DNA of 59,552 nucleotides, from NCBI GenBank assembly GCA_028820935.1, contig JAPPHZ010000043.1, forward strand, positions 1 through 59,552, in the 5' to 3' direction. This DNA comes from a bacterium. Its GTDB lineage: Bacteria; Actinomycetota; Acidimicrobiia; Spongiisociales; Spongiisociaceae. Shown here piece by piece: positions 46,112 to 46,736 of the stretch. The notes under the pieces were generated by a model that had not been told where the DNA came from, searched no databases, and saw only the letters and a program-made list of their open reading frames with translations. Position numbers and translations under genes: made by a program. Numbering within the stretch: the stretch's first letter is position 1; each line of letters opens with the position of its first letter.

Positions 46112-46570
46112 TCATCGACCGCCCGTCGCCTGGCGAAGCACCTCAAGGGCGCGGTCGGAGTGGAGGCGCATGTTCAACTCGGAGCGCACGGTCCGCAGCA
46201 CTGTGCCGTCGCGGTCGATCACGAACGTGCGCCGCTTGTCCGGGAGGAAGCGGCCCCGCGACACGCCGAAGCTGCGGGCGATGGCGCGGCTCGGGTCGGC
46301 GAGCAGCGCAAAGCCCAGGGAATTGGCGTCATCGAACTCGAGTTGCCGATCAACCTGATCGGCGCTGATTCCCACGATGCTGGCTCCGAGTTGGGCGAAC
46401 TCTTCCGACAGGTCGCGGAAATAACAGCTCTGACGCGTTCAGCCCCGAGTCATCGCCTTCGCGTAGAAATACACCACCACGGGACCCGAATCGAGCAGGT
46501 CGCGCAACACCAGCGTGTTGCCATGCTGGTCCAGCGCCTCGAAATCAGGCGCCTTGTCTCCCGCCTTCAC
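46112..46570 (-). CDS. Bcp-type peroxiredoxin, candidate selenoprotein (in-frame TGA at the peroxidatic position)
   Basis: From GTG 46570 (GGAAGAGGAC upstream) the frame reads VKAGDKAPDFEALDQHGNT and VVVYFYAKAMTRG. A TGA follows at 46441-46439, and the same frame goes on as TRQSCYFRDLSEEFAQLGASI, VGISADQVDRQLEFDD and FALLADPSRAIARSFGV to a normal stop. In Bcp peroxiredoxins the residue after KAMTPG is the peroxidatic Cys, and a resolving Cys lies five residues on; here TGA is in the first position and Cys (SC) in the second. Both flanks are intact over 152 codons with no other damage. Most likely the TGA encodes selenocysteine. A nonsense mutation or sequence error (TGC/TGT to TGA) is the alternative. 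It would reduce peroxides in the cytoplasm. Confidence 0.75.
46402..46421 (-). promoter_or_regulatory. candidate bacterial SECIS-like stem-loop
   Basis: On the minus strand, 19 to 36 bases after the TGA, TTCCG-CGACCTGT-CGGAA folds into a 5-bp stem (6 with a T-G pair) and an 8-base loop whose second base is G. The distance to the loop lies in the range used by bacterial SECIS elements, which sit inside the coding region just after the UGA. Five base pairs can occur by chance, so this supports the idea but does not prove it. Confidence 0.45.
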
Positions 46571-46736
46571 GTTTTGTCCTCTTCCTTCCGCTAACTGGGG
46601 AACATTATGGCGTTCCGGCCGTGCGCTCGGCCAAGCCGACTTCATAGTCCGGACCGGGCCGTATCATCCGCGACGGCAGGCGGTGAAACGGCCTACCCTC
46701 CTGGTTCCAGGTACGGCGAAACGGAAGGAGTGCCCC

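Follow-up and report, generated by a model that had tools for sequence, protein, structure and literature searches.

Selenocysteine (Sec)-containing peroxiredoxins (COG1225/PF00578, with a TxxU active site) have been counted in a series of surveys: 43 genes in the Sargasso Sea survey (PMC1088965), 12 in a 2006 genome survey, 253 in the GOS survey (PMC2398784), and 91 genes in 78 organisms in a 2016 survey. The biochemical precedent, according to the passage of PMC13188914 that cites it, is PrxU from Eubacterium acidaminophilum (Sohling et al., 2001). The gene described here lies within the window, that is, the whole stretch of 59,552 nucleotides that was analyzed, from a bacterium of the class Acidimicrobiia. 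With a probability of about 0.96, judged from sequence, it encodes a functional selenoprotein of the atypical 2-Cys (PrxQ/Bcp) type of thiol peroxidase, whose codon UGA44 would be decoded as Sec by SelA, SelB, SelD and tRNA-Sec. The features of the gene are as follows.

46112..46570, minus strand: predicted Sec-containing Bcp/PrxQ peroxiredoxin gene, GTG start, TGA stop, 152 amino acids plus stop (translation, Pfam, dN/dS)
46439..46441, minus strand: in-frame TGA, codon 44, predicted Sec at the peroxidatic position (TGA shared by all 9 genus copies and by Acidimicrobiia relatives; other relatives have a Cys codon)
46424..46426, minus strand: TGT, codon 49, candidate resolving Cys of a U-x4-C pair (sequence; present in all genus copies)
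46578..46585, minus strand: GGAAGAGG, putative Shine-Dalgarno-like element 7 nt upstream of the GTG start (direct sequence reading)

Reading frame and active site

When the TGA is read through, the 152-codon frame contains one internal stop, the TGA at codon 44 (46441-46439), and the protein reads VKAGDKAPDFEALDQHGNTLVLRDLLDSGPVVVYFYAKAMTRG-U-TRQSCYFRDL... from the GTG at 46570 to a terminal TGA at 46112. The Pfam AhpC-TSA family (PF00578) matches across the internal TGA (residues 4-124, E 7e-34), the two halves forming one domain, and the original prediction of a Bcp-type frame open but for a single TGA is thereby borne out. Gene calling with table 11 returns two ORFs of 68 and 87 amino acids at the locus, the split that had been anticipated for standard callers; automated annotation leaves two ORFs without meaning in place of what appears to be a working antioxidant selenoprotein.

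The active site of the window protein, FYAKAMTRG-U-TRQSC, fits the Bcp/PrxQ type (FYxKAMTxGC with a resolving Cys at +5). The top PDB match found with phmmer is the peroxiredoxin 5epf (E 5.6e-38, aligned over residues 2-149), in which a Cys faces the TGA and a second Cys faces the +5 Cys. This alignment agrees with the earlier placement of the TGA in the peroxidatic Cys column after KAMTRG, as do the homolog columns, and with the proposed Sec-x4-Cys pair completed five residues later by the Cys of TRQSC (Cys49), which is the sole Cys of the protein. The top NCBIfam match is PRK09437 at 104 bits, below the curated cut-off of 140 bits, and on this score the window protein is best classed as a relative of that equivalog, outside its membership. 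Database relatives are mostly annotated by similarity alone, and the enzyme might on that account be mainly a Sec-dependent thiol oxidoreductase of the peroxiredoxin fold rather than a peroxidase; we consider this improbable, as the AMTxxU peroxidase motif is retained and the closest solved structure is a Bcp/PrxQ-type peroxiredoxin.

Selenocysteine machinery and conservation of the UGA codon

The host genome (3.3 Mb, 97% complete) encodes each component of the Sec machinery that had been named as a check on the original prediction: selA (428.8 bits) adjoins selB (320.6 bits, in one frame) on contig C10, both above curated cut-offs, tRNA-Sec with the anticodon UCA (76.6 bits) lies on contig C14, and selD (380 bits) lies on contig C36. 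The selenoproteome of this genome was probed family by family. One in-frame TGA is carried by selD, within the active-site sequence SPGGGUASKLG, and one by the gene for formate dehydrogenase alpha (FdhA), within NRTUHAPSV; at both sites Sec is what these families usually have. As both occur besides the Sec-peroxiredoxin, the organism would have at least three candidate selenoprotein genes. At the FdhA locus (L171, G000:C11:43384-45237), the N-terminal profile positions 1-51 are missing and are matched downstream, at C11:47920-48072.

Within the genus, TGA occupies codon 44 in nine of nine copies, the window's own included, all of which retain the +5 Cys, and neither TGC or TGT at this codon nor any other inactivating mutation was found among the genus members. 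A tenth genus genome (G027, 95% complete) has selA and lacks the Sec-peroxiredoxin gene. TGA is also found at this codon in two genomes from another family of the same order (G013 and G014), both with selA, and in other members of the order the column is occupied by TGC or TGT; the distribution is thus TGA only in the genus and TGA, TGC or TGT in more distant relatives. Among 11 close sequences, the variable columns are mostly third codon positions and dN/dS is 0.17 for the part 5' of the TGA and 0.21 for the part 3' of it, the latter value indicating that the codons beyond the TGA are under in-frame selection at the protein level. A truncated copy from G022 was excluded as a probable contaminant (the assembly is listed with 8% contamination); over 60 residues it is nearly identical to the G030 copy, beyond which the two diverge.

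A scan of the genome collection with a DNA pattern in which TGA is fixed within FYxKxxTxGU-T...D returned at least 119 stretches, plus one in the viral collection. About one match is estimated to arise by chance, and the matches translated across the TGA are peroxiredoxin active-site regions. Acidobacteriota, Planctomycetota, Verrucomicrobiota, Myxococcota, Chloroflexota, Pseudomonadota, Neomarinimicrobiota, Poribacteria and others are represented among the listed matches. This breadth bears directly on whether the gene is instead a decaying pseudogene, or whether mutation or a sequencing error has converted a Cys codon (TGC/TGT) into TGA. An in-frame stop within a housekeeping gene that is missing from one congener is what such an explanation would predict, but the same TGA is shared by nine genus assemblies and by the stretches from many phyla, dN/dS remains low past it, and the Sec machinery is complete. 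On the sequence comparisons we therefore regard decay or error as already refuted by conservation, with a negligible residual probability; the earlier claim that the rest of the protein is undamaged, unlike a decaying gene, is upheld by the low dN/dS on both sides of the TGA and by the retention of the TGA in all nine genus copies.

No Cys-type Bcp copy was found in the host genome, in which the one further peroxiredoxin-like match is distant (25% identity), has Cys at the active site and is not a Bcp. In this actinobacterial lineage, the sole Bcp-type peroxidase would be selenium-dependent.

Among the matches listed, Cys occupies the +5 position in 59 of 129 distinct Sec-peroxiredoxin sequences, the others having R, K, S, Q or further residues; the resolving Cys is therefore often absent in Sec forms. 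In two sequences from another family of the same order (L035 and L036), it is replaced by Arg (UTIESR and UTLESR, respectively), and the L036 protein contains no Cys at all, which suggests a 1-Sec mechanism for that enzyme. In a phylogenetic tree, the window gene falls within a well supported clade (100/99), mainly of Acidimicrobiia, where Sec and Cys forms are mixed and the Cys rows require three changes, in a sample that is biased because most Sec rows were gathered by the TGA pattern. The clade, in which Sec and Cys enzymes coexist and the resolving Cys is missing from some of the Sec enzymes, is useful for the study of Sec/Cys exchange.

Several of the more distant sequences are unusual in other respects. 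Poribacterial genes (L054:144-1148, L063 and L119, also L056, L122 and L167) encode two fused peroxiredoxin domains in a single frame, with a hydrophobic stretch at the N-terminus and TGA at the peroxidatic position of each domain, which makes them tandem double-selenocysteine peroxiredoxins; a literature search for Poribacteria together with selenoprotein found no paper. The Sec-peroxiredoxin of L076 (CAMBFS010000005.1), labelled as a Klebsiella pneumoniae MAG, groups with Myxococcota/Binatota, and the organism label is probably wrong. That of L170:9803-9859, an IMG/VR contig filed as viral, is located near the contig end and is close to copies from proteobacterial MAGs; it is possibly host sequence.

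The region downstream of the UGA

The original prediction included a small stem-loop at the right distance past the UGA. RNAalifold analysis of the close sequences yields the following.

46379..46428, minus strand: candidate SECIS region (RNAalifold, 11 close sequences; unproven)
46395-46416, minus strand: consensus hairpin GCGA-C-CU / loop GUCGGAAG / AG-U-UCGC (RNAalifold)

The consensus hairpin is extended, and its apical loop opens with a G 29 nt past the UGA. No compensatory changes were found in any pair of the candidate helix among the close sequences, and the GCGA-CU/AG-UCGC helix is kept in the genus but is formed in some Cys homologs too. Furthermore, the UGA region of the window gene shows no excess fold stability relative to dinucleotide shuffles (z -0.04) or to synonymous shuffles (z +0.7; about +0.4 to +1.3 in the genus). 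Over a set of 125 Sec-peroxiredoxin sequences, the 51 nt from the TGA show somewhat greater stability than their synonymous shuffles (mean z -0.88); a control stretch taken from these genes has a mean z of -0.36 (Mann-Whitney P 0.0003 for the difference). Synonymous change is marginally reduced in codons +1 to +10 after the UGA (P 0.06).

The bacterial SECIS search past the UGA gave a negative result, there being no Rfam SECIS match in this region; a Rfam match to a Pseudomonas sRNA on the opposite strand was discarded as chance-level. Two further hairpins were rejected, namely GUUAU/GCGAC, which is mispaired in the genus and good in some relatives, and UUCCG/CGGAA, which is broken in several congeners. 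Of the predicted stem-loop, what stands is that weak hairpins can be drawn at this location, whereas folding is at shuffle level and lacks covariation. A SECIS hairpin downstream of the UGA in the window gene is, on the sequence, possible but unproven. It seems unlikely that SelB in this lineage reads a weak or differently built SECIS missed by standard models, which would amount to a divergent Sec-insertion rule. At other loci, L035 and L036 have a perfect GUCAC-loop-GUGAC hairpin 3' of the UGA, and at the selD locus (L018:1501-2430, G000:C36) a 6-bp stem closed by a 7-nt loop whose first base is G can be drawn (AGCUCG GCGCUGA CGAGCU); the loop lies 13 nt after the UGA, and the structure differs from the minimum-energy fold.

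That a SECIS could not be demonstrated would be expected if a standard amino acid were inserted at the UGA, as a near-cognate tRNA might do with Trp or Cys, or if the codon served as a regulatory stop. Either reading is nevertheless very improbable, since the UGA is placed exactly at the peroxidatic Cys column, the classical position of Sec/Cys exchange, in a genome that has the Sec trait and two more genes with UGA at known Sec positions.

Proposed mechanism and relation to known selenoperoxiredoxins

Under the favored Sec interpretation, UGA44 would be decoded by means of SelB and tRNA-Sec, with SelB recruited by a presumed SECIS hairpin within approximately 60 nt past the UGA. By analogy with the PrxQ family, Sec44 would attack the peroxide as a selenolate to yield a selenenic acid, which would react with Cys49 to give a selenenyl-sulfide that thioredoxin or a similar reductant would recycle.

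The original interpretation of the codon as Sec is supported. The novelty that it implied is overstated, given that Sec-peroxiredoxins already form an established family of selenoproteins. A literature search for selenoprotein together with Acidimicrobiia returned no relevant paper, and Sec use in the lineage was not found described in it. The window protein shares with the known bacterial Sec-peroxiredoxins the Pfam family, the Sec position (T-x-x-U) and the architecture of a stand-alone small peroxiredoxin. Like PrxU, it has Sec at the peroxidatic position, but the corresponding model (NF040737) scores it weakly (28.9 bits versus a cut-off of 270), which places it in another peroxiredoxin subfamily. 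The resemblance to the Cys-type Bcp/PrxQ protein 5epf extends over residues 2-149 and includes the Cp-x4-Cr pair, with the difference that 5epf has Cys at the peroxidatic site where the window protein has predicted Sec. The window gene leaves knowledge of selenoproteins unchanged; the family to which it appears to belong has been described since the 2000s, and the lineage in which it occurs is at most all that is new.
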